DNA of 64,000 nucleotides from Gluconobacter cerevisiae (GTDB taxonomy: Bacteria > Pseudomonadota > Alphaproteobacteria > Acetobacterales > Acetobacteraceae). The translations under genes and the position numbers were made by a program. The notes below the pieces were generated by a model. That model did not search any database and was not told the origin of the DNA. It saw only the letters and a list, made by a program, of their open reading frames with translations. Position 1 is the first letter of the stretch. Every line of letters begins with the position of its first letter. Positions 11,953-47,640 of this stretch are shown here, piece after piece. The stretch spans positions 1 through 64,000 of the forward strand of contig NZ_JABCQO010000009.1 of the NCBI RefSeq assembly GCF_015244675.1, read 5' to 3'.

Positions 11953-12879
11953 TCAGTAACCGCGCCCTGTATCGATAACGCCGGTCATGGACTCACCCGC
12001 TTCGTAGCGACGCAGATTGGCCAGAACGACCTCAGCAGCGCTGTCCGACTGAGCGGCACTGGCGATATGGGGGGTCAGAAAAATGCGGGGATGATCCCAG
12101 AACGGATGCTCGGGCGGCAGCGGTTCGGGCGTCGCGACATCGAGAACTGCCTGTGAAAGCTGACCGCTATCGAGCGCCGGGATCAGATCATCCTGAACCA
12201 GATGGCCACCGCGGCCACAGTTGATGACGCACGCGCCTTTCGGCAGTTTCGAAAACAGGGCGCTGTTGAGAATGCCCCGCGTGGCCTCCGTCAACGGGAC
12301 GAGGCAGACCAGAATGTCAGTCTGAGCCAAAAAATCGTCCAGCTCCGCCTCTCCGGCGAAAGATGTCACGCCCGCGACTTCCCGGCGGCTGCGGCTCCAG
12401 CCCCGGCATTCGTACCCGAAAGAGACGAGCTTCTCCAGAACCGGGCTGCCCAGTTCTCCCATCCCCATGACGCCGACGCGATAAAGCCGCGCAGGGCGGT
12501 TATGCGAACCGCTCCAGACATGCTCCCGCTGCTGGCGGGCGTAGCGGAACATATCCCGGTGGAAGGAAAACACCGCCCACAGGACATATTCGATCATGCC
12601 TTCAACCAGGCTATTCTCCACCATACGAATGATCTGCACGCCGGGAGGAATATTGGCGAGATTAAGCTGGTCGATCCCCGCGCCCAGCGAGAACAGGATT
12701 TCCAGATTGGGAAAAAGCGTGCCGAGATCATCTGGCGTCTTCCACGCCGCAAGATAACGGACATCTTCTTTCGGGCCAGTTTCGGGCCAGACATGAAACG
12801 GCATATCCGGCCGGGCGCTGGCGAATTTCTCTCGCCAGATGGCAGCGCGTTCGGGCGTGTGATGAAAGACGAGCGACAT
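11953..12879 (-). CDS. ghrA: D-2-hydroxyacid dehydrogenase, GhrA-like (glyoxylate/hydroxypyruvate reductase)
   Basis: The protein is 308 residues from the ATG at 12879, with GGAGAA eight bases upstream; the open frame continues further but without family character. It has the NAD(P)-binding GVMGMGELG motif mid-protein, the catalytic arginine in NCGRGG, and the C-terminal histidine in LTPHIAS. Length and sequence fit the GhrA subgroup, which reduces glyoxylate to glycolate and hydroxypyruvate to glycerate. It lies near the allantoate cluster, where glyoxylate is a co-substrate. A link is possible but unproven. Confidence 0.85.
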   Translation of the reverse strand: MSLVFHHTPERAAIWREKFASARPDMPFHVWPETGPKEDVRYLAAWKTPDDLGTLFPNLEILFSLGAGIDQLNLANIPPGVQIIRMVENSLVEGMIEYVLWAVFSFHRDMFRYARQQREHVWSGSHNRPARLYRVGVMGMGELGSPVLEKLVSFGYECRGWSRSRREVAGVTSFAGEAELDDFLAQTDILVCLVPLTEATRGILNSALFSKLPKGACVINCGRGGHLVQDDLIPALDSGQLSQAVLDVATPEPLPPEHPFWDHPRIFLTPHIASAAQSDSAAEVVLANLRRYEAGESMTGVIDTGRGY

Positions 12880-13050
12880 TCTGCGTGTTCTCCGGCCGGA
12901 AATATGTCCGGAGATGGTCGCCCCATGCGAGCTTCTGATCAACCCCGCTCCCCTGCCCTCACACCTGTTTGTGTAGAGACAAAGACCCGGGGAACGCGTG
13001 CCGGGGTCGGACGTAGATGAGGACCGGATCTCATGCAGGAGGGTAGGATC

Positions 13051-13270: not shown

Positions 13271-14503
13271 TCAGGCCGCGTCCCAGGCAGCACGGGCGGC
13301 ATCCACGCCCGCACCACGGTTGAGCGCTACGCCTTCGCCAGCCAGAACGGAGTCGAGCGCCGCCAGCGTAAGGAGCACCTTGTCCTTGCGCGCGTTGAGA
13401 CCCATTGCCCCGATGCGCCAGATTTTCCCGGTCAGCGGACCGAAGGACGAGACGATCTCGATCCCGAAATCGTCGCGCATCAGTTCGCGGATGCGTGCAT
13501 TGTCCACGCCATCCGGCACCCAGACGCCGGTGACATTGCTCATGCGGGTGGTGTCGTCGCCATAGACCTTCAGCCCCATGGCCCGCAGACCTGCGACCAT
13601 GGCGCGTCCTGCCCTGACATGACGCGCAACACGGGCCTCCACGCCCTCTTCCACGACCAGACGCGCCGTCTCGCGCGCGGCGTAAAGCATGGAGGTCGCT
13701 TCGGTATGATGGTTCATCCGGGCCGGAGACCAATAGTTCATGAGCATCGCCAGATCGAAATAATTCGACTGGATGACAGGCCCACTCCCCTGTTCCTGAC
13801 CGGTCGCAATCCCGGCTTCGTCATGGCGGCGCTTGAGAATGGCGGCGACAGCACGGTCCGACAGCGTGATCGGCGCGGAACCCGGAGGACCGTTCAGGCA
13901 TTTCTGAAGCCCTGCCGTAGCGACATCGATGTTCCAGGCATCGGTCTCAAACGTCATGCCGCCGAGGGTCGCAGTGGCATCCACATAGAACAGTACGTCA
14001 TGCTTGCGGCAGATCCGGCCGATCTCTTCGAGCGGCTGGGCGGTCGTGGTGGACGTGTCACCATGCACGCAGGCGACCAGACCCGGCTTGTGTTCGATGA
14101 TGGCGGCCTCGATGCGAGCCGGATCAACAACCTCTCCCCATTCCACATCCACCGTGCACGGAATACCGCCACAGCGATGGACGATTTCCGTCAGCAGCAG
14201 GCCAAAGCGGCCAAAACGCGGAATGACGACCTTCATGCCCGGCGAGACCAGAGACACCAGAGCTGCTTCAATGGCTGACCGGGCCGAGCCGTTCACCAGC
14301 AGCGTCCAGTGGTTCTTCGTACGGAAGACCTCGCGATACAGGGCCATGACCTCGTCCATATAGGCGGTCATTTCCGGGTCCATCTGGCCGATCACGTCAT
14401 AGGACATGGCACGCAGGATGCGCGGATGGACATTGGTTGGGCCTGCACCCATCAGCAGACGGGACGGCAGGTCAAGCTGTGCGTAAGTTGAAAGCTGGCT
14501 CAT
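13271..14503 (-). CDS. Ureidoglycine-glyoxylate aminotransferase-like (HpxJ/PucG)
   Basis: This class-V PLP aminotransferase is 410 residues from the ATG at 14503, which has AAGGAG upstream and overlaps the preceding stop as ATGA. Lys201 in GLQKCLNGPPG is the expected Schiff-base lysine. Asp175 in YVDATATLGG would contact the cofactor, and the N-terminal LLMGAGPTNVHPRIL is typical of the alanine-glyoxylate/PucG group. Members that sit beside an allantoate amidohydrolase convert ureidoglycine plus glyoxylate to oxalurate plus glycine. Here it is coupled to just such a gene, which favours that role over general alanine-glyoxylate transamination. Confidence 0.82.
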   Translation of the reverse strand: MSQLSTYAQLDLPSRLLMGAGPTNVHPRILRAMSYDVIGQMDPEMTAYMDEVMALYREVFRTKNHWTLLVNGSARSAIEAALVSLVSPGMKVVIPRFGRFGLLLTEIVHRCGGIPCTVDVEWGEVVDPARIEAAIIEHKPGLVACVHGDTSTTTAQPLEEIGRICRKHDVLFYVDATATLGGMTFETDAWNIDVATAGLQKCLNGPPGSAPITLSDRAVAAILKRRHDEAGIATGQEQGSGPVIQSNYFDLAMLMNYWSPARMNHHTEATSMLYAARETARLVVEEGVEARVARHVRAGRAMVAGLRAMGLKVYGDDTTRMSNVTGVWVPDGVDNARIRELMRDDFGIEIVSSFGPLTGKIWRIGAMGLNARKDKVLLTLAALDSVLAGEGVALNRGAGVDAARAAWDAA

Positions 14504-15735
14504 GACTGGAACTCCTTGACGAAGGCAAGCAGGGCGCGATGGGCGAGCGCGACGTCTCCCACACGAACTGTTTCGTCGGGATGATGGCTGAGGCCACCAG
14601 GACTGCGGATGAAGAGCATGCCCATCGGACACAGATCGACCATGGCCATGGCATCATGCCCCGCACCGCTGAGAACGCGTTGGGCCGGACGGCCGGTCAC
14701 GGTCGTCACGGCCCGGGACAAACGCTCCACCAGTGCAGGCGCGCAGGCGGCGGCAGGCAAAATCTGCGGCGTGTCGAACGTGATGCCGACAGCCCGACTG
14801 GCCGCGATGGCGCGCAGATCCGCGCGGATGGCGTTCACCATCGCATCTCGCGCCGCGTCGTTTTCGGCGCGCATGTCCAGCGAGAAGCGGACTTCGCCCG
14901 GAATAACGTTCGAAGTATTGGGCACAACCTCAACCTGTCCGACCGTGGCAACCTGCGTGGCCCCTCCGGCCCCACCATTGCGTTCAACGGCAAGAATCAT
15001 TTCAGCCACCGCCGTCAAGGCATCCTGACGCATGGTCATGGGCGTCGTGCCCGCATGGTCGGACTGGCCGGTGACGGTCACCCGGTGGCGGGTCTGGGCG
15101 GCGATGGCGGTGACAACACCGATTTCTCCGTCCACGCTTTCGATCGCCGGACCCTGTTCGATATGAGGCTCAATATAAGCGATCAGCTCATCCGGCCGAC
15201 GAGCGGCTTCGGTCAGGCGCGCCGGGTCGAGACCAGAGCGGAGCATGGCTTCGGCCATGGTCACGCCGGACGCATCCGTCATGTCTTCGGGAATGGATTC
15301 AATCAGCCCGGCCATGGCGCGGGAGCAGATCATGGGGGCGGCAAAACGAGACCCCTCTTCGTCCCCGAACCCCATGACCTCAATGGCGAATGGCAGGCGA
15401 GTGCCCTTTTCCTTCAGGGCGGAGACAAGCTCGATCCCCAGCATGACGCCCAGATTGCCATCAAACGCACCGCCATTACGGACAGTATCGAGATGCGAAC
15501 CGATCATCAGGGCCGGAGCACCCGGCACAAGACCCTCGTAACGGCCAACAAGGCTCCCGGCAGCGTCCAGACGGGTGCTGAGACCAGCCTCTTCCATCCA
15601 TTCTGCGACCTGTGCGAGGGTGCGCTGATAGGCAGGACCGAGCCAGAATCGGAACAGACTGCCCGGCGTCTCGCTGAAAGGACCATCCGCGAGAATACGG
15701 CACCGCTCGACGGCGCGGGCTCCGTGGGCTGTCAT
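14500..15735 (-). CDS. Allantoate amidohydrolase-like M20 hydrolase (HpxK/AllC)
   Basis: The protein is 411 residues, in the M20 family of N-carbamoyl-amino-acid and allantoate amidohydrolases. The dimetal site is visible: His81 in GSHLDTV, bridging Asp92 in GGAFDGNLG, and Glu126/Glu127 in GDEEGSRF. The dimerisation-domain motif SDHAGTTPM is also present. AGGAG precedes the ATG. It is first in an operon with the PucG-like aminotransferase and diverges from the LysR gene. Allantoate to ureidoglycine is the best-supported reaction. A general N-carbamoyl amidase cannot be excluded from sequence alone. Confidence 0.83.
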   Translation of the reverse strand: MTAHGARAVERCRILADGPFSETPGSLFRFWLGPAYQRTLAQVAEWMEEAGLSTRLDAAGSLVGRYEGLVPGAPALMIGSHLDTVRNGGAFDGNLGVMLGIELVSALKEKGTRLPFAIEVMGFGDEEGSRFAAPMICSRAMAGLIESIPEDMTDASGVTMAEAMLRSGLDPARLTEAARRPDELIAYIEPHIEQGPAIESVDGEIGVVTAIAAQTRHRVTVTGQSDHAGTTPMTMRQDALTAVAEMILAVERNGGAGGATQVATVGQVEVVPNTSNVIPGEVRFSLDMRAENDAARDAMVNAIRADLRAIAASRAVGITFDTPQILPAAACAPALVERLSRAVTTVTGRPAQRVLSGAGHDAMAMVDLCPMGMLFIRSPGGLSHHPDETVRVGDVALAHRALLAFVKEFQS

Positions 15736-15816: not shown

Positions 15817-15834
15817 AATATGGTCCCACATATT
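15817..15834. promoter_or_regulatory. Palindrome in the hpxK-like/lysR divergent promoter
   Basis: AATATG (15817-15822) and CATATT (15829-15834) form a perfect 6-6-6 dyad around GTCCCA. It contains the T-N11-A spacing typical of LysR-family operators. It lies about 80 bases before the M20 hydrolase start and immediately before the regulator start. It is the best candidate operator for the cluster. Confidence 0.5.
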
Positions 15835-15837
15835 GGC

Positions 15838-16722
15838 ATGAAAGATCAGATGCATCTCGATCCGTTCCATCTGCAATCCTTTCTCGCCGTCGCGGAAACG
15901 CTGCATTTCACGTCAGCCGCGCAGAGTCAGGGGGTAAGCCAGTCCACCATCAGCCAGCATGTCAGTCGGCTGGAGGAGCAGCTTGGCACGCGCCTGCTGG
16001 CCCGAAGCACCAAAAGCGTGCGTCTGACCGGAGACGGCATGGCTCTGATCGGTCTGGCCCGGCAGCTTCTGCAATGCGAGGACAGCATCCTGTCCCGCTT
16101 CCGGCAGGACGCACCGCGCGGGACGATCCGGCTGGGCGTGACGGAAGACCTGCTCCTGACGCGCTTTCCCGAAATTCTCGGCACATTCCGCGCCTCACAC
16201 CCCTCCCTTCAGATCACGCTGACCGTGGGGCTGTCGGCGCATCTGGCCAACCTGCTGGAACAGGGGGAGCTGGATGTCTGGTGCGGGATGCGACGCACAA
16301 GCGAAACACGCGGACAAAAACTCTGGACCGAGGACATGCGCTGGTACGCCCCCGCAGGTACGGAATTTCCGGCAGAACAATCCATTCCGCTCGTCACATT
16401 TCCCGACGGCAGCGTAACGCGCAGACTGGCGATCGAGACGCTCAACAAGGCCGGAAGGGCGTGGCATCTGGCCTTTACCAGTGGCAGTCTCGGAGCACTT
16501 CTGGCTGCTGTCCGGGCAGGATATGGCGTCACACCGCAACCTGCGTTTCTGCGAAACGTGGAACATCTGCCGCATTGCACGCCGGGCCTTCTGCCGGACA
16601 TGCCGCAGGTAGAGTTCATCGCTTCCACCCGCCATCAGACCGCGCAGGGCCCCGAAGACCTGCTGATCCGGACGCTATGCGCGCATGTCCCGCGCCTTCA
16701 GCCCGAACTTATGCCTCTTTAA
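15838..16722 (+). CDS. LysR-family transcriptional regulator of the allantoate cluster
   Basis: This 294-residue regulator has an N-terminal winged helix-turn-helix (FLAVAETLHFTSAAQSQGVSQ, then STISQHVSRLEEQLGTRLLAR) and a periplasmic-binding-protein-like effector domain from about residue 90. I start at the ATG at 15838. The upstream ATG at 15820 lies inside the palindrome, and 15850 is also possible. No strong ribosome site is visible. It is divergent from hpxK/hpxJ and 10 bases upstream of the hpxW-like gene, so it probably controls both arms. The effector is unknown; an allantoin-pathway intermediate is a reasonable guess. Confidence 0.88.
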   Translation: MKDQMHLDPFHLQSFLAVAETLHFTSAAQSQGVSQSTISQHVSRLEEQLGTRLLARSTKSVRLTGDGMALIGLARQLLQCEDSILSRFRQDAPRGTIRLGVTEDLLLTRFPEILGTFRASHPSLQITLTVGLSAHLANLLEQGELDVWCGMRRTSETRGQKLWTEDMRWYAPAGTEFPAEQSIPLVTFPDGSVTRRLAIETLNKAGRAWHLAFTSGSLGALLAAVRAGYGVTPQPAFLRNVEHLPHCTPGLLPDMPQVEFIASTRHQTAQGPEDLLIRTLCAHVPRLQPELMPL

Positions 16723-16732
16723 GGACAAAACC

Positions 16733-18325
16733 ATGCTCACACCCAACGCTCTTGGCGGAATGGTGACGTCACCGCACCATCTGGCAAGTCAGGCGGGGCT
16801 GGATGTCCTGCGCGAAGGCGGTACGGCCCTTGAAGCCGTCGTCGCCACGGCGTCCACACTGGCCGTGGTGTATCCACACATGACGGGGCTGGGCGGCGAT
16901 GCATTCTGGCTGATCTGCCACCCGGACGGCCGCACCGTGGCGATTGACGCCTGCGGGGCGCTGGCGATGGGTGCCGAACATGCGATCTATACCGAAGCCG
17001 GGCACAGCGTCATTCCCTGCCGGGGCGGCCTTGCGGCCAATACGGTTGCAGGCACGGTCTCGGGCTGGGAAACCGCGCTGGGCCTGAGCGCTGAACTCCG
17101 CGAACCCCTCCCGCTAGACCGCCTGCTCCGCGACGCCATCCATTACGCCGAATATGGCCGGGTGGTTTCCGAAAGCGAGGGCGCCCTGCTCGCACAGAAG
17201 CAGCACGAACTGCTGTCAGATCCAACGCTGGCGCGGATCTGCTTTCCCGAAGGCAAACCCTGGACAGCAGGAAGCATCCGCAAATCGCCAGAACTGGCCC
17301 AGACGCTGAGAATGCTGAACCGGGACGGCTTGCGGAGCTTCTATAACGGTCCACTCGCCCGCAGTCTGGCGGCGGATCTGGCGGCGGCGGGCAGCCCGGT
17401 CCGATCGCTGGACCTGCTGGCGCATCGCGCGGAGGTCAAGGAACCCCTTCAGGCCCAAACGAGCGATGGCACTCTCTACAACACCGCGCCTCCCACACAG
17501 GGCGTGGCATCCCTTCTGATCCTTGCGCTCTCGGATCATCTGAGCCGCGACGGCGGGCCGGAGAGCTTTTCGCACATCCACGGGCTGGTCGAGGCGACCA
17601 AACAGGCGTTTCTCTATCGCAACAGCCACACGGATGGCAGCGAGCATTCCGAGGCACTGGCGCGGAGCCTTCTTGCCGACCCGGCACGGCTGGAGGCGAT
17701 GACAGCCCGGATGTCCATGACCCATGCCATGCCCTGGACGGAACAGACTCAGTGGGGCGACACGACCTGGATGGGCGCGATCGACCGCAATGGCGTGGCG
17801 GTCAGCATGATCCAGAGCCTGTATTTCGAGTTCGGCTCCGGTGTGATGCTGCCGCAGAGCGGGCTGTTCTGGCAGAACCGGGGCTCGTCCTTCCGTCTGG
17901 CCCATTCGGGCTGGAACATCCTGCGCCCCGGCGCCAAACCGTTTCATACGCTCAATCCGGCTGCGGCCCGACTCCGCGACGGACGGACGATGGTGTACGG
18001 CACCATGGGCGGCGAAGGGCAGCCCCAGACACAGGCGGCCGTCTTCAGCCGTCACGTCCGCCACGGCGTTCCGCTTCAGGAAGCCATCCGTCGTCCGCGC
18101 TGGCTGCTGGGACGAACATGGGGGGAAGAGAGCCTGTCGCTCAAGGTGGAGCCGGGCTTCAGCCCAGATGTGATGTCGCAGCTTGAAACGGCAGGGCATG
18201 TCGTCGAAGCGCTTGAACACCAGTCCATCATCATGGGTCACGCCGGCGCACTGATCCGCCATGAAAACGGACGACTTGAAGGCGCAACCGACCCTCGTAG
18301 CGACGGAGCTGTTGCAGCATGGTAA
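16733..18325 (+). CDS. HpxW-like oxamate amidohydrolase (gamma-glutamyltransferase fold)
   Basis: The protein is 530 residues of the Ntn-hydrolase gamma-glutamyltransferase family. There is no signal peptide, unlike true periplasmic GGT. The likely autoprocessing nucleophile is Thr344 in GDTTWMGAID, where GGT has TTH. The N-terminal GGMVTSPHHLASQAGLDVL and the YPHMTGLGGDAFW stretch resemble the HpxW branch, which hydrolyses oxamate to oxalate and ammonia in purine breakdown. Its neighbours (allantoate hydrolase, ureidoglycine aminotransferase, HpxX/HpxY pair) support this over glutathione metabolism. AAGGAC precedes the ATG at 16733. The gene overlaps the transporter by 7 bases. Confidence 0.8.
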   Translation: MLTPNALGGMVTSPHHLASQAGLDVLREGGTALEAVVATASTLAVVYPHMTGLGGDAFWLICHPDGRTVAIDACGALAMGAEHAIYTEAGHSVIPCRGGLAANTVAGTVSGWETALGLSAELREPLPLDRLLRDAIHYAEYGRVVSESEGALLAQKQHELLSDPTLARICFPEGKPWTAGSIRKSPELAQTLRMLNRDGLRSFYNGPLARSLAADLAAAGSPVRSLDLLAHRAEVKEPLQAQTSDGTLYNTAPPTQGVASLLILALSDHLSRDGGPESFSHIHGLVEATKQAFLYRNSHTDGSEHSEALARSLLADPARLEAMTARMSMTHAMPWTEQTQWGDTTWMGAIDRNGVAVSMIQSLYFEFGSGVMLPQSGLFWQNRGSSFRLAHSGWNILRPGAKPFHTLNPAAARLRDGRTMVYGTMGGEGQPQTQAAVFSRHVRHGVPLQEAIRRPRWLLGRTWGEESLSLKVEPGFSPDVMSQLETAGHVVEALEHQSIIMGHAGALIRHENGRLEGATDPRSDGAVAAW

Positions 18326-19581
18326 AGTATTTTGCAGAGAGCCTGTTCGCGCAGGTCGTTCTGGCAACGCTTCTGGGGCTTGGCGCCGGACTATTCTTCC
18401 CTTTTCTGGCTGATGACGTGGGCTGGATGACAGCACTGTTCATGCGCCTCATCATCATGGCCGTTGGGCCGCTTCTGTTCTGCATCGTAACACTCGGCAT
18501 TCTGGGTGCGGGCTCCCTGAAAACAGTAGGGCGGCTGGGCGGATGCGCGATGCTCTATTTCGAACTCATGACCACAGTGGCGCTTGTCGTGGCGGTCATG
18601 GTGGCAATGGGGCTGGGAATCGGACAGGGCGTAGGCTTCGTCCCTACAGCGAGCGACGCGCGGATGATCGCCTCCTATGGCGGCCATGCCCAAAATCTGC
18701 GTGCGGAAGGCTTTAGCGGATTTCTGCTCTCGCTCGTCCCCCACACCCCGGCCGATGCGTTTGCGCAGGGCAATGTCCTTCAGATTCTGGTCTTCGCGAT
18801 TCTTGTCGGATGCTGCCTGAGCGGCATGGGAGACCGGGGCCTGCCGCTGGTCCGACTGGTCGAAAGCGTGTCCGACCTGTTTTCACGCATGATGGGCCTC
18901 ATCATCCGCGTAGCGCCACTCGGCGTCTTCGGAGCAATGGTGACGACGACGGCACGATATGGCCTCGGAACGATCGGGCATCTGGCCGGATTTACAGTCC
19001 TGTATTTCCTGCTGGTCGGCGCATTTGTCGTCTGCGCACTGGGCGGGGGCCTTCGGCTCGCAGGCGTAAACCCTTTGCGATTTGCACGATATTTCCGTGA
19101 AGAGCTGCTGATCGTCGCCACCACCACGGCGTCCGATGCGGTTCTGCCCAGCCTCATGACCAAGCTCGAAAAGCTGGGCGTCGAGCGTCAGGTCGTCGGA
19201 ATCGTAGTGCCTGCGGGCTATTCGCTCAATCTGGATGCGCTGTCGATCTATCTGGGGTTAGCCGTCATTTTTCTGGCCAATGCCACCGGAACGCATCTGA
19301 CATTCTGGCAGATCGCAACCCTGCTGGTGACCGCCCTGATCACGTCCAAAGGCTCGCACGGCATTCCGGGTTTTGCGATCGTCGTTCTGGCGGCGACGCT
19401 GGCCAGCGTTCCGTCCATTCCGCCCGGAAGTCTGGTGATGCTTCTGGCCGTGGACTGGTTCGTGGGAATCGCCCGGGCTGTAGGCAATTTCGCTGGAAAC
19501 TGCGTGGCCCCGGTCCTGATCGCCGCGTGGGAAAAACGCCTCGACCACGCAAGAATGGCCGAGGCGCTGAAACAGCCCTGA
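18319..19581 (+). CDS. DAACS-family symporter, dicarboxylate or ureide uptake
   Basis: This 420-residue polytopic transporter of the dicarboxylate/amino acid:cation symporter family (GltP/DctA fold) carries the substrate-site segment YSLNLDALSIYLGLAVIFLA and the later SKGSHGIPGFAIVVLAATLA. It starts inside the end of the hpxW-like gene, so it belongs to the lysR-hpxW transcript. Its position suggests it imports a pathway substrate or intermediate such as allantoate, oxamate or a dicarboxylate. The sequence does not decide which. It ends 1 base from the convergent amidase gene with no terminator between them. Confidence 0.88.
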   Translation: MVKYFAESLFAQVVLATLLGLGAGLFFPFLADDVGWMTALFMRLIIMAVGPLLFCIVTLGILGAGSLKTVGRLGGCAMLYFELMTTVALVVAVMVAMGLGIGQGVGFVPTASDARMIASYGGHAQNLRAEGFSGFLLSLVPHTPADAFAQGNVLQILVFAILVGCCLSGMGDRGLPLVRLVESVSDLFSRMMGLIIRVAPLGVFGAMVTTTARYGLGTIGHLAGFTVLYFLLVGAFVVCALGGGLRLAGVNPLRFARYFREELLIVATTTASDAVLPSLMTKLEKLGVERQVVGIVVPAGYSLNLDALSIYLGLAVIFLANATGTHLTFWQIATLLVTALITSKGSHGIPGFAIVVLAATLASVPSIPPGSLVMLLAVDWFVGIARAVGNFAGNCVAPVLIAAWEKRLDHARMAEALKQP

Positions 19582-19582
19582 G

Positions 19583-20917
19583 TCAGACCAGACGGGCCTC
19601 CGCCAGCCCATCCGCTTCCAGCTTTTCCGCCAGTGCGAAAAGCTGGTCTTCCCGCCCCGGACGCGCGATGAGCTGCGCGCCGAGCGGCAGACCCGGAACC
19701 TTCATCGGAACCGTCAGAACCGGGAATCCAACCAGCGTCAGCGGCTGCGTATACAGCCCCAGATTGGCACGGGCGGAGACCATCCTGCCCCCAATCTCGA
19801 TTTCCGGCTGATCGAAGCGCGGCGCTTCCCCGACAAGTGCCGGAGCCAGCAGGATGTCGGTCTTTGCAAACGCCTCATGCATCTGGTCCCGAAACCAGTG
19901 CCGCAGACGATGTGCCTGAAAAACGAGCGTGGAGGGCAGAAGCGCACCGGCCAGCAGGCGGTCGCGCACGGCGGGATCATAGTCCGCAGCCTGTGTCCGC
20001 AGCCGACCGAGATGCTGCCCTGCCCCTTCGGACGCACTAATGACGAAGGCCGCCGCACGGGCCCGCGCCACTTCGGGCAGTTCAACCACATCCGTCGCCC
20101 CCAGCGCCATCGAGAGCCTGTCGATGGCTGTCTGCATCGGAGGGGACATGTTTTCACCGAACCAACCGCCAAGCCGGGCAATCCGCAGGCTACCAGCCTC
20201 CACAGCCGGAAGCGCCTTTGCGCTGAGAGCCTCAAAACAGGCCTTCAGCCCGCCTGCACTGTCCGCAAACGGTCCGACCGTATCGAGACTCGGCACGAAC
20301 GGGTAACTGCCTTCGGTCGACAGGAGCCCCTGCGTCGCGCGCAGCCCCCAGATACCGCAGAGCGAGGACGGAACGCGGATCGAGCCATTCGTATCGGACC
20401 CCAGCCCGATGGAAAACAGCCGCGCCGCCACACCCGCCGCCGACCCACCCGAAGAGCCACCGGCCAGACGGTCCGGCGCATGCGGATTGCGGGTATTGCC
20501 GTAATGCGCGTTGATCGTGGCGAACCCGTAGGCGAACTCGTCCATATTCGTCAGGGCCACCGGAATGGCTCCGGCCGCAATCATATGCGCGACGAGCACC
20601 GCGTCCTGCGTGGCGGGCGGATCATTGGCGAGGACCTTGGACCCCGCCGTCGTGATCTCTCCACGAACATCGAACAGATCCTTGATGCCGAAAGGCACAC
20701 CCGCGAGCGGTCCGGGGTCCTGCCCCTGAAGCACCAGACGGTCCACGCGTTCGGCGGCCTCCAGCGCGCGCTGCATCAGAAGACGCGTGACGCAGCCATA
20801 GGCCCCGTCCCGGCTTTCGATATCAGCCAGAACCTTCACCGCGAGTTCGCGGGCGGAAATTTCGCCCTTGCGAACGCTGGCGGCGAGCGCGACGGTGCGC
20901 TGCTGAAGGCCGCTCAT
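19583..20917 (-). CDS. AtzE/HpxY-like amidase (amidase-signature family)
   Basis: This 444-residue amidase-signature enzyme has the Lys-Ser-Ser triad complete: Lys79 in FGIKDLFD, the serine pair 155-156 in AGGSSGGSAAG, and Ser179 in GSDTNGSIR. The sequence belongs with the AtzE group, known as 1-carboxybiuret hydrolase in atrazine breakdown and as HpxY in purine clusters. The start overlaps the preceding small gene as ATGA. That partner encodes the AtzG/HpxX subunit these amidases need. The substrate here is unknown. Oxalurate is a chemically similar candidate. Confidence 0.82.
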   Translation of the reverse strand: MSGLQQRTVALAASVRKGEISARELAVKVLADIESRDGAYGCVTRLLMQRALEAAERVDRLVLQGQDPGPLAGVPFGIKDLFDVRGEITTAGSKVLANDPPATQDAVLVAHMIAAGAIPVALTNMDEFAYGFATINAHYGNTRNPHAPDRLAGGSSGGSAAGVAARLFSIGLGSDTNGSIRVPSSLCGIWGLRATQGLLSTEGSYPFVPSLDTVGPFADSAGGLKACFEALSAKALPAVEAGSLRIARLGGWFGENMSPPMQTAIDRLSMALGATDVVELPEVARARAAAFVISASEGAGQHLGRLRTQAADYDPAVRDRLLAGALLPSTLVFQAHRLRHWFRDQMHEAFAKTDILLAPALVGEAPRFDQPEIEIGGRMVSARANLGLYTQPLTLVGFPVLTVPMKVPGLPLGAQLIARPGREDQLFALAEKLEADGLAEARLV

Positions 20918-21096
20918 GGCTCATACCGGAATGCAGGTTCAAGACGATCAGGCAGTTCCAGCCCTTCGATCAGCGCACCATAACTGCGCAAAAGATCCAG
21001 ATTGCTCCGCACACCTGCATGGAACTCGACCGGAATAACCAGCCCGTTCGCTTTAGCGAGCACCGTGATTTCAGTGTCATGAGGATCTGTCATCAT
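20914..21096 (-). CDS. AtzG/HpxX-like small amidase subunit (DUF4089 type)
   Basis: This 60-residue acidic protein has the segment ALIEGLELPDRLEPAFRYEP at its C-terminus, typical of the small partner of AtzE-type amidases. In the AtzE-AtzG complex this subunit stabilises the amidase and contributes to catalysis. GGAG lies five to eight bases before the tandem ATG codons at 21096 and 21093. It is translationally coupled to the amidase gene. Confidence 0.8.
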   Translation of the reverse strand: MMTDPHDTEITVLAKANGLVIPVEFHAGVRSNLDLLRSYGALIEGLELPDRLEPAFRYEP

Positions 21097-44004: not shown

Positions 44005-45423
44005 ATGACCATCCGTACGCGATTTGCCCCCTCCCCGACGGGTCTGCTGCATGTCGGCAACGCCCGCGCCGCCCTGTTCAATTTCCTCTTTGCCCGTCAT
44101 CACGGCGGCGAATTCCTCCTGAGGATCGAGGACACCGACAAGGAACGCTCCACTCAAAAAGCCGTGGACGTGATTTTTGACGGTCTGGCCTGGATGGGAA
44201 TCGAGGCGGATGCGGAACCGGTTTTCCAGTCCGCCCGGCAGGACCGCCATACGGAAGTGGCGCTTGAGCTTCTGGAAAAAGGTCAGGCCTACAAGTGCTT
44301 CTGCACCCCCGAAGAGCTGACCGCCATGCGCGAGAAGGCCATGGCCGAGAAACGCCCGCCCCGTTACGACGGCACCTGGCGGGACCGCGATCCGTCCGAA
44401 GCGCCCGCTGGCGCGCCCTATGTCGTGCGCCTGAAGGCGCCGCGTGACGGCGAGACGATCATCAAGGATCTGGTGCAGGGCGAAGTCCGGGTCGCGAATT
44501 CCGAAATGGACGACCTGATCCTGCTGCGCTCGGACGGCACGCCGACCTATCTGCATGCCGTGGTCGTCGACGATCACGATATGGACATCACCCATGTCAT
44601 GCGCGGTGACGATCATCTGACGAACACGTTCCGGCAGGCCATGATCTATCGCGCCATGGGCTGGAACCTGCCGCATTTCGCACATCTGCCGCTGATCCAC
44701 GGCCCTGACGGCGCCAAGCTGTCCAAGCGCCATGGCGCACAGTCCGTCGTGGATTTCCGTGAGGAAGGCTATCTGCCGGAAGCCCTGTGCAACTACCTGC
44801 TGCGTCTGGGCTGGGGTCATGGCGATGCCGAAGTCCTGTCCCGCGAGGAGCAGATCAAGCTGTTCGATCTGGATGGCGTGGGCCGCTCCCCGTCCCGGAT
44901 GGATTACGTCAAGCTGGCGCATCTGAACGGGATCTGGATGCGTGTGGCCGATGATACGCGTCTGACGGATGACGTCATGCAGCGTCTTGCAGGCCGCGAC
45001 GGCGTTGTGACGGATGACAAGACCCGCGCGCGCATCCTTGCGATGATGCCGGGCCTCAAGGAGCGCGCAAAGACGCTCGTGGAACTGGCAGACAATGCCG
45101 CTTTCGCTGGCTTCACGCTGCCACTGACCTTCACCCCCAAGGCCGAGAAGATGCTGGGTGACGACGGGCGCACGGTTCTGCAGGGCGTAGGCAAAGATCT
45201 GGCCGCGCTTTCGGACTTCACGCCCGAAACCGTCGATGCAACGCTGCGCGCCTATGCTGAAAAACACGAGATCAAGCTCGGCTCCGTCGCCCAGCCGCTG
45301 CGCGCGGCCATGACGGGCTCCACGACGTCTCCGGGCATTGATCTGACGCTTGCGGCGCTGGGACAGGACGAGGTTCTGGCCCGTATTGCTGCCGTTCTGA
45401 CTTCCGGGGCCGTCGATGCCTGA
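44005..45423 (+). CDS. gltX: Glutamate-tRNA ligase
   Basis: This class I aminoacyl-tRNA synthetase is 472 residues. The HIGH-type motif is HVGNARAAL (about 13-21), and the KMSKS-type motif is AKLSKRHG. It attaches glutamate to tRNA-Glu, and also to tRNA-Gln in bacteria that use GatCAB. The zinc region keeps the CFC pair but has Trp (YDGTWRD) where the E. coli enzyme has a third cysteine, so the zinc site is probably lost. It is the first gene of a run continuing into pyrB with an 8-base overlap. Confidence 0.96.
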
Positions 45424-46357
45424 GCGGCCTTCCGTCCCCCGGCATCTCCTGGGAATCGAGGGGCTGTCGGCCGAACAGCTCGTGCCGTTCCTCGATCTGG
45501 CGGAGAGCTATGCGCTGCTGAGCCGCTCGCGCTCCGCGCCGCGTGATGCGCTGCGGGGACGGACGGTCATCAATCTGTTCTATGAAGACAGCACCCGCAC
45601 CCGCACGAGTTTCGAACTCGCGGGCCAGCGGCTTGGGGCGGACGTCATCAACATGTCCGTCGCCACAAGTTCAGTGAACAAGGGCGAAACGCTTCTGGAC
45701 ACGGCCGCGACGCTGAACGCCATGCGCTGCGATCTGTTGGTCATCCGGCACGCTCAGTCCGGCGCGCCCGCCCTGCTGTCACAGAAAGTCGAGGCCAGCG
45801 TCGTCAATGCGGGCGATGGCACGCATGAACATCCGACGCAGGCGCTACTGGATGCCCTGACGATCCGGCGGCATTTCGGGCGTCTGGAAGGCCTCACGGT
45901 CGCGATCTGCGGCGATGTCGGGCACAGCCGGGTGGCACGTTCCAACATCCATCTGCTGACGGCATTCGGAAACCGGGTGCGGCTGGTCGGACCGCCGACG
46001 CTGCTTCCGGGCGCCATGGCCAGCCTCGGCAATGTCGAAATGTATTCGGACATGGACAAGGCGTTGGACGGCGCGGATGTTGTCATGTCCCTGCGGCTTC
46101 AGAAGGAGCGCATGGGGGCCGGTCTAGTGCCGAGTGCGCGGGAATATTTCCATTTCTTCGGGCTGGACCGCCGCCGTCTGGGGCTGGCAAAGCCTGGCGC
46201 GCTCGTCATGCATCCGGGGCCGATGAACCGTGGCGTCGAAATCGCCTCGGACGTGGCGGATTCGGATCAGAGCGTGATTTCCGAACAGGTTGAAATGGGC
46301 GTGGCTGTGCGGATGGCGGTTCTGGACCGTCTGTCCCGGGCACGGATGCCGGTATGA
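45416..46357 (+). CDS. pyrB: Aspartate carbamoyltransferase catalytic subunit
   Basis: The enzyme makes N-carbamoyl-aspartate, the first committed pyrimidine step. The protein is 313 residues with the carbamoyl-phosphate motif [12 protein letters not shown] (about 57-68), the [14 protein letters not shown] segment and the C-terminal [12 protein letters not shown]. No pyrI regulatory gene is present. The adjacent dihydroorotase homologue lacks its metal site, as in the PyrB-PyrC' type enzymes where PyrC' holds the PyrB trimers together. The ATG overlaps the gltX end. Confidence 0.97.
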
Positions 46358-47640
46358 CTGATATCGTTTTTGAAAATGTCCGCCTGATCGACCCGGCTTC
46401 GAGCCGCGATGAGACCGGACGTCTCGTGGTGCGTCAGGGCAAGATCGTCGCCTGCGACGATGGGTCGCTTCCTGAAGGCGCGCGGGTCATTGATGGCGCT
46501 GGAGCCGTCCTGTGTCCCGGTCTGGTGGACATGCGCGTTGCACTCGGAGAGCCGGGTTCGGAATACCGCGAGAGTGTGTCGTCCGGGGCGCGGGCAGCCG
46601 TGGCAGGCGGCATCACGACCATGGCGGTTCTACCCAACACCTCCCCCCCGATCGACAACCCGGCGCTCGTGCATCTGCTGCGGGTCCGGGGCGAAGAGAC
46701 GGGCATGGTCTCGATCCATCCCTACGGCGCGCTAACGCGTGGCTGCGAGGGCGGCGAGATGGCCGAACTCGGGCTGCTGCGCAACGCCGGAGCCGTGGCG
46801 TTCACAGACGGAACCCGCGCGATTTCAGACGCCAAGCAGATGCGTAACCTGCTGTCCTATTCGCGCTTTCTGGACGCCATCGTGGTGCAGCATCCGGAAG
46901 ATCCGTCTCTGGCTAAAGGCGCGTGTGCCACGGCCGGAGCACGGGCGGTGCGGATGGGTCTGCCGCAGGTTCCGGCCGAAGCCGAGTCCATCATGATCGC
47001 CCGCGATCTGCGTCTGGCGGCCATGACCGGTGCGCGACTGCATTTCGCACATGTCTCGACGGCAGAAGGGCTGGACCTGATCCGGGCGGCCAAAAGGCAG
47101 GGCGTACGTGTGACCTGCGATACGGCACCGCCCTATTTCGCCATGACCGAAGACGATATCGGCGACTTCCGCACATACGCGAAACTCTCGCCGCCCCTGC
47201 GCAACGACGCGGACCGACAGGCCGTCTGTGCCGCGCTGGCGGATGGAACGATCGACGCCGTGGCCTCCGACCATGCTCCGGCAGACCCGGATGACAAGCG
47301 CCTGCCTTTCGCGCAGGCCCGCGCTGGCGGCACCGGACTGGTCACGCTGCTAGGCGTCACACTTGGCGCGGGGCTGCCGCTTGTGGATGCGCTGCGTCTC
47401 CTGACCTCCGCTCCGGCCGCCCTGCTGGGCCTTAACGCCGGAACGCTGGCGGTCGGAAGCGATGCCGATCTGTGCCTGTTCGATCCGGAAGGCTCGTGGA
47501 CTGTGGTCGCCGGAGACCTGCCGGGACGCGCGCAGAACACACCGTTTGACGGTCGGGATCTGAAATGCCGTGTCCTGCGGACGTTCAAGCGCGGTGTGGA
47601 AGTCTTCACGGCTGACGGGCTGGCGGAGGCACGCTCGTGA
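46354..47640 (+). CDS. Dihydroorotase homologue lacking the metal motif (PyrC'-like)
   Basis: The protein is 428 residues with the amidohydrolase fold of type I dihydroorotase, but the active site is degenerate. Where the enzyme has DxHxHxREPG, this protein has [10 protein letters not shown], so both metal histidines are replaced (Arg61, Ala63). The usual TPHH region is APPYF. SDHAP near the C-terminus remains. This is the pattern of PyrC', an inactive partner that assembles with aspartate carbamoyltransferase. The start overlaps the pyrB stop as ATGA, supporting such a complex. An active dihydroorotase would be expected elsewhere in the genome. Confidence 0.88.

Follow-up and report, generated by a model that had tools for sequence, protein, structure and literature searches.

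The amidase gene pair and its neighbours

The window, by which we mean the whole stretch of 64,000 nucleotides from Gluconobacter cerevisiae that was analysed, carries a group of genes assigned to the aerobic HPX purine pathway. In this group, the minus strand carries hpxJ and hpxK; next come a LysR-type regulator, hpxW and a DctA symporter, all three on the plus strand, and then the convergent pair hpxY-hpxX. The features are listed below, HpxZ being encoded on a contig other than that of the window.

11953..12942, minus strand: GhrA-like glyoxylate/hydroxypyruvate reductase, downstream of hpxJ, a possible accessory gene
13271..14506, minus strand: hpxJ, ureidoglycine aminotransferase, predicted to form oxalurate; best matches 3nnk and 3isl
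14500..15735, minus strand: hpxK, allantoate amidohydrolase; NF006775 587 bits, cut-off 479
15820..16722, plus strand: LysR-type regulator, between hpxK and hpxW
16685..18325, plus strand: hpxW, oxamate amidohydrolase, gamma-glutamyltransferase-like; best match 5hft, Thr360 at the autoprocessing site
18319..19581, plus strand: DctA-like dicarboxylate symporter, possible carrier of ureide or oxamate/oxalate
19583..20917, minus strand: hpxY, 444 aa, AtzE-family amidase, predicted catalytic subunit of oxalurate amidohydrolase; Lys79, Ser155, Ser179
20914..21096, minus strand: hpxX, 60 aa, AtzG/GatC-like small subunit; 4-base overlap with hpxY
G000 C13:10080-10445, other contig: HpxZ; NF033625 159 bits, cut-off 135

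The earlier note had described an AtzE/AtzG-like pair with a complete amidase triad in the same cluster as an HpxW-like enzyme, and these assignments hold. HpxY scores above the curated cut-offs of NF006631 (596 bits, cut-off 461) and TIGR02715 (535, cut-off 426), and its best PDB match is chain A of 6c62, the AtzE chain of the enzyme from Pseudomonas ADP, to which it is 44% identical. The Ser-cisSer-Lys triad is complete, Lys79, Ser155 and Ser179 being invariant in 103/103 aligned AtzE/HpxY-family sequences. HpxX passes the PF13318 AtzG-like profile (25.4 bits, cut-off 24). A PDB search with the single HpxX sequence returned designed repeat proteins only; the profile built from 11 HpxX relatives then matched one PDB sequence alone, AtzG (6c62_C), end to end and with an E value of 0.0015. 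A counterpoint to its identity is that the window's HpxX fails NF033624, the NCBI HpxX equivalog, and gave no match in the NCBIfam scan, whereas Klebsiella HpxX does match this model. HpxY is the only AtzE-type amidase found in the genome search, the other match being GatA.

Purifying selection acts on the pair and on the rest of the cluster. The dN/dS values of HpxY and HpxX are 0.04–0.07 against three other Gluconobacter genomes, that of HpxY is 0.11 against G. japonicus, and those of the cluster genes are mostly 0.01–0.11, with a maximum of 0.17. The amidase is 98% identical to those of the closest named relatives, Gluconobacter albidus and G. cadivus.

As for the neighbours, the match of HpxW to 5hft (K. 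pneumoniae HpxW) spans both subunits, and Thr360 aligns with the residue at the start of the beta chain; the N-terminal threonine is kept. The start codon given for hpxJ is a choice within a longer open reading frame (13271-14632). The GhrA-like gene is kept downstream of hpxJ in four close Gluconobacter relatives. A DctA relative also adjoins hpxK-hpxJ on Zymomonas pZM33 and in genome G046. The stretch on the Zymomonas mobilis plasmid (L017) holds porin, dctA, hpxK, hpxJ, hpxZ, hpxX and hpxY together, without hpxW, a layout that suggests DctA-mediated uptake of a ureide and an oxamate step that is either absent or of another kind.

Purine genes and carbamoyltransferases in the genome

Elsewhere in the genome, PuuE allantoinase is encoded near genes for OHCU decarboxylase, an HIUase-family protein, xanthine permease and guanine deaminase. 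HpxZ carries all nine (9/9) of the AtzH pocket residues named in PMC6219798. Since hpxZ adjoins hpxX in G. japonicus and Neokomagataea, it has probably been relocated in the group to which the window belongs.

The pair had been proposed to replace a lost carbamoyltransferase, named as HpxFG. This name does not fit. The gene order in Klebsiella (binding protein, permease, permease, ATPase, aminotransferase, HpxK) agrees with hpxFGHIJK and, by our assignment of the letters, puts HpxFG among the ABC-transporter genes, so that to speak of a "missing HpxFG" is to use the wrong name; the carbamoyltransferase is in fact AllFGH (PMC11326118). Searching for AllFGH through AllG alone (PF06545), we did not find AllG in this genome, and AllG scored above cut-off in only 2 of 150 Acetobacteraceae genomes. 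The idea of a replacement must also be abandoned, as HpxXY is an ordinary enzyme of the HPX pathway, and HpxJ, AllG and an AtzE-type amidase occur together in four sampled genomes. A YgeW-type carbamoyltransferase was rejected as a candidate because the genome has only two PF00185 carbamoyltransferase genes, one of them being pyrB, which lies in the window and overlaps a dihydroorotase-like gene (45416-47640).

Co-occurrence and linkage in other genomes

In a sample of 150 Acetobacteraceae genomes, an AtzE-type amidase is present in 25 of the 26 genomes with HpxJ and in 19 of the 20 with HpxW, and in 15 of the latter 20 it lies within 300 bp of hpxW. Fisher tests of these associations give p values of 1e-5 to 1e-8, which ignore shared ancestry, the genomes being phylogenetically non-independent. 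The exceptions are G046, with HpxJ but without the amidase, and G061, with HpxW but without it. The G046 locus (L132) holds hpxJ, hpxK, dctA and three porin-like genes, and no AtzE-type amidase over the cut-off was found in that genome. An in-frame TGA interrupts the HpxW gene at C303:76802-78400 of G054 (L009), which means either decay or a sequencing error; this same-genus genome matches Neokomagataea anthophila (L047).

The linkage between amidase and hpx genes recurs, with altered gene orders, in Novosphingobium, Sphingomonas, Xanthomonas, Pseudoxanthomonas, Klebsiella and Acidithiobacillus. One Klebsiella record (L016, CP125156.1) is labelled as a plasmid, but its size of 5.37 Mb suggests a chromosome.

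In a phylum-wide sample of 299 genomes, HpxJ was found in 20, of which 12 have an AtzE-type amidase. The other eight have, near hpxJ or hpxW, an amidase about 31–45% identical. All six of these amidases that were scanned pass NF006169 (G164, G284, G299, G372, G194 and G317), and the tree places the G296 and G382 amidases with them, all eight forming one clade. The corresponding hpxJ/hpxW/hpxK clusters without AtzE-type amidase are L121, L122, L123, L124, L127, L128, L129 and L130; a TauE/SafE exporter is also present in those of L121 and L127. In G317, the NF006169 amidase gene overlaps the HpxZ gene. The presence of this second amidase near hpx genes in eight genomes lacking the first indicates that two amidase lineages are linked to the HPX pathway.

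Predicted reaction and alternatives

We think that the pair corresponds to HpxX-HpxY of the aerobic HPX purine pathway and predict, with a probability of roughly 0.8, that it hydrolyses oxalurate on the way to oxamate and oxalate. The direct results are that the pair belongs to the family, has intact catalytic residues, is linked to hpx genes and is under purifying selection, that the genome has the upstream genes and HpxZ, and that AllG is absent from it; from these we infer the substrate, the cleaved bond and what HpxZ does. In the predicted route, HpxK would convert allantoate into ureidoglycine and HpxJ would turn the latter into oxalurate. HpxY, paired with the small subunit HpxX, would then use its Ser-cisSer-Lys triad to hydrolyse the terminal carbamoyl amide of oxalurate, giving ammonia and N-carboxyoxamate. 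This intermediate would yield oxamate and CO2, either by the action of HpxZ or by spontaneous decay, and HpxW would finally convert oxamate into oxalate and ammonia.

The model for the central step is AtzE: it converts 1-carboxybiuret into 1,3-dicarboxyurea by removing the terminal amide, and this product is probably decarboxylated by AtzH (PMC6219798). Oxalurate is an N-carbamoyl acid analogous to 1-carboxybiuret, so N-carboxyoxamate is the expected product; by the same analogy, HpxZ, with its complete set of AtzH pocket residues, is the likely decarboxylase. An oxalurate amidase feeding HpxW, as the earlier note had it, thus stays the best reading for an amidase that travels with hpxJ and hpxW where AllG is absent, although its substrate is deduced; what the note missed is HpxZ. 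A counterpoint is that AtzE, a member of this family, has another substrate.

HpxZ might appear dispensable: its gene lies apart from the pair in the group to which the window belongs, and the search detected no HpxZ in 6 of the 20 HpxW genomes of the Acetobacteraceae sample, which indicates that it is not strictly required. This would fit a cut at the inner carbamoyl C-N bond, giving oxamate and carbamate directly, with no N-carboxyoxamate and another job for HpxZ. We consider such a cut unlikely, since the homologue AtzE takes off the terminal amide (PMC6219798), the dicarboxyurea pocket of AtzH is retained in HpxZ at all nine positions, and HpxZ is also paired with an NF006169 amidase in L127.

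That HpxY and the Pseudomonas ADP AtzE are 44% identical, with the same triad and a small subunit in common, raises the question of whether the pair is a true AtzEG, i.e., a 1-carboxybiuret hydrolase for the breakdown of cyanuric acid or biuret. This is very improbable, because neither the window nor the surroundings of the close relatives' genes showed a match to AtzD or AtzF, and because a tree of 111 amidases (built quickly, without bootstraps) separates the window amidase from the AtzD/AtzF-linked enzymes; the cyanuric-acid enzyme AtzE does not group with it. The window amidase falls in a clade of 52 members, and for 49 of these hpxW and/or hpxJ is close by. On the tree, the hpx context label changes 7 times compared with 35.7 when shuffled, a clustering that near-copies inflate. 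The alignment columns that separate hpx-linked from other family members are confounded by phylogeny, with Klebsiella HpxY having mostly the other residues, and therefore we make no claim of specificity from them. AtzE-family amidases also occur at cyanobacterial loci (L065-L118), where no hpx or atz neighbours were detected.

A split of oxalurate into urea and oxalate, which would likewise be an amide hydrolysis and would bypass oxamate, is hardly credible, as it would leave the linked oxamate amidohydrolase HpxW pointless.

Relation to known systems

The closest counterpart is HpxX-HpxY-HpxZ of Klebsiella, described within hpxWXYZ (PMC3560190), which has the same families and the same companions hpxW, hpxJ and hpxK. 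The Klebsiella HpxY is 44% identical to that of the Gluconobacter genome, in which hpxZ is carried by a separate contig, hpxXY and hpxW point in opposite directions, and the ABC importer gives way to a DctA symporter. AtzE-AtzG of Pseudomonas sp. ADP (6c62) shares the amidase family, the triad, the small subunit and the type of amide bond, but has atzD and atzF as neighbours and occupies a separate branch of the tree. Clusters of ggt-atzG-atzE-atzH with a transaminase and an allantoate amidohydrolase had already been noted (PMC6219798). The oxamate carbamoyltransferase AllFGH of E. coli (PMC11326118) also consumes oxalurate and makes oxamate, but through unrelated proteins and saving the carbamoyl group as carbamoyl phosphate. 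By analogy, the N-carbamoylputrescine amidohydrolase AguY (PMC12283126) may be taken as a precedent for an amidase doing transcarbamylase work: possibly derived from GatA, it hydrolyses a terminal carbamoyl group where a transcarbamylase works elsewhere, although with another substrate, in another pathway and with a length of 568 aa.

The activity is not a new proposal either. HpxY has been predicted in print to be an "oxalurate amidohydrolase" (PMC12625717), a source that contradicts itself, since the legend of its Fig 7 calls the protein an oxamate carbamoyltransferase. The NCBIfam label for HpxX and HpxZ is "oxalurate catabolism protein". Thus, Gluconobacter HpxXY is very probably a member of the already described HpxX-HpxY, whose oxalurate activity is a prediction in the literature that we examined, where we found no assay of HpxXY on oxalurate.

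Significance

The linkage of NF006169 amidases in HpxJ genomes is a new supporting result. With somewhat less than an even chance, we think that HpxXY and the apparently single-chain NF006169 amidases both fill the oxalurate amidase step in different bacteria, the N-carboxyoxamate from either being processed by HpxZ or decaying spontaneously, and that the cyanuric-acid enzyme AtzEG arose by recruitment of an HpxXY-like ancestor. In the tree, AtzE stands beside Klebsiella HpxY (SH-aLRT 86 and 97), a position that is no more than suggestive.

The conversion of oxalurate into oxamate in the aerobic HPX pathway rests on prediction in the literature examined, and the comparative evidence turns it into a matter for a simple enzyme test. 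It also gives a likely role to the widely annotated "AtzE family amidohydrolase" of acetic acid bacteria, sphingomonads and xanthomonads, and a hint at the origin of an enzyme of the atrazine pathway.
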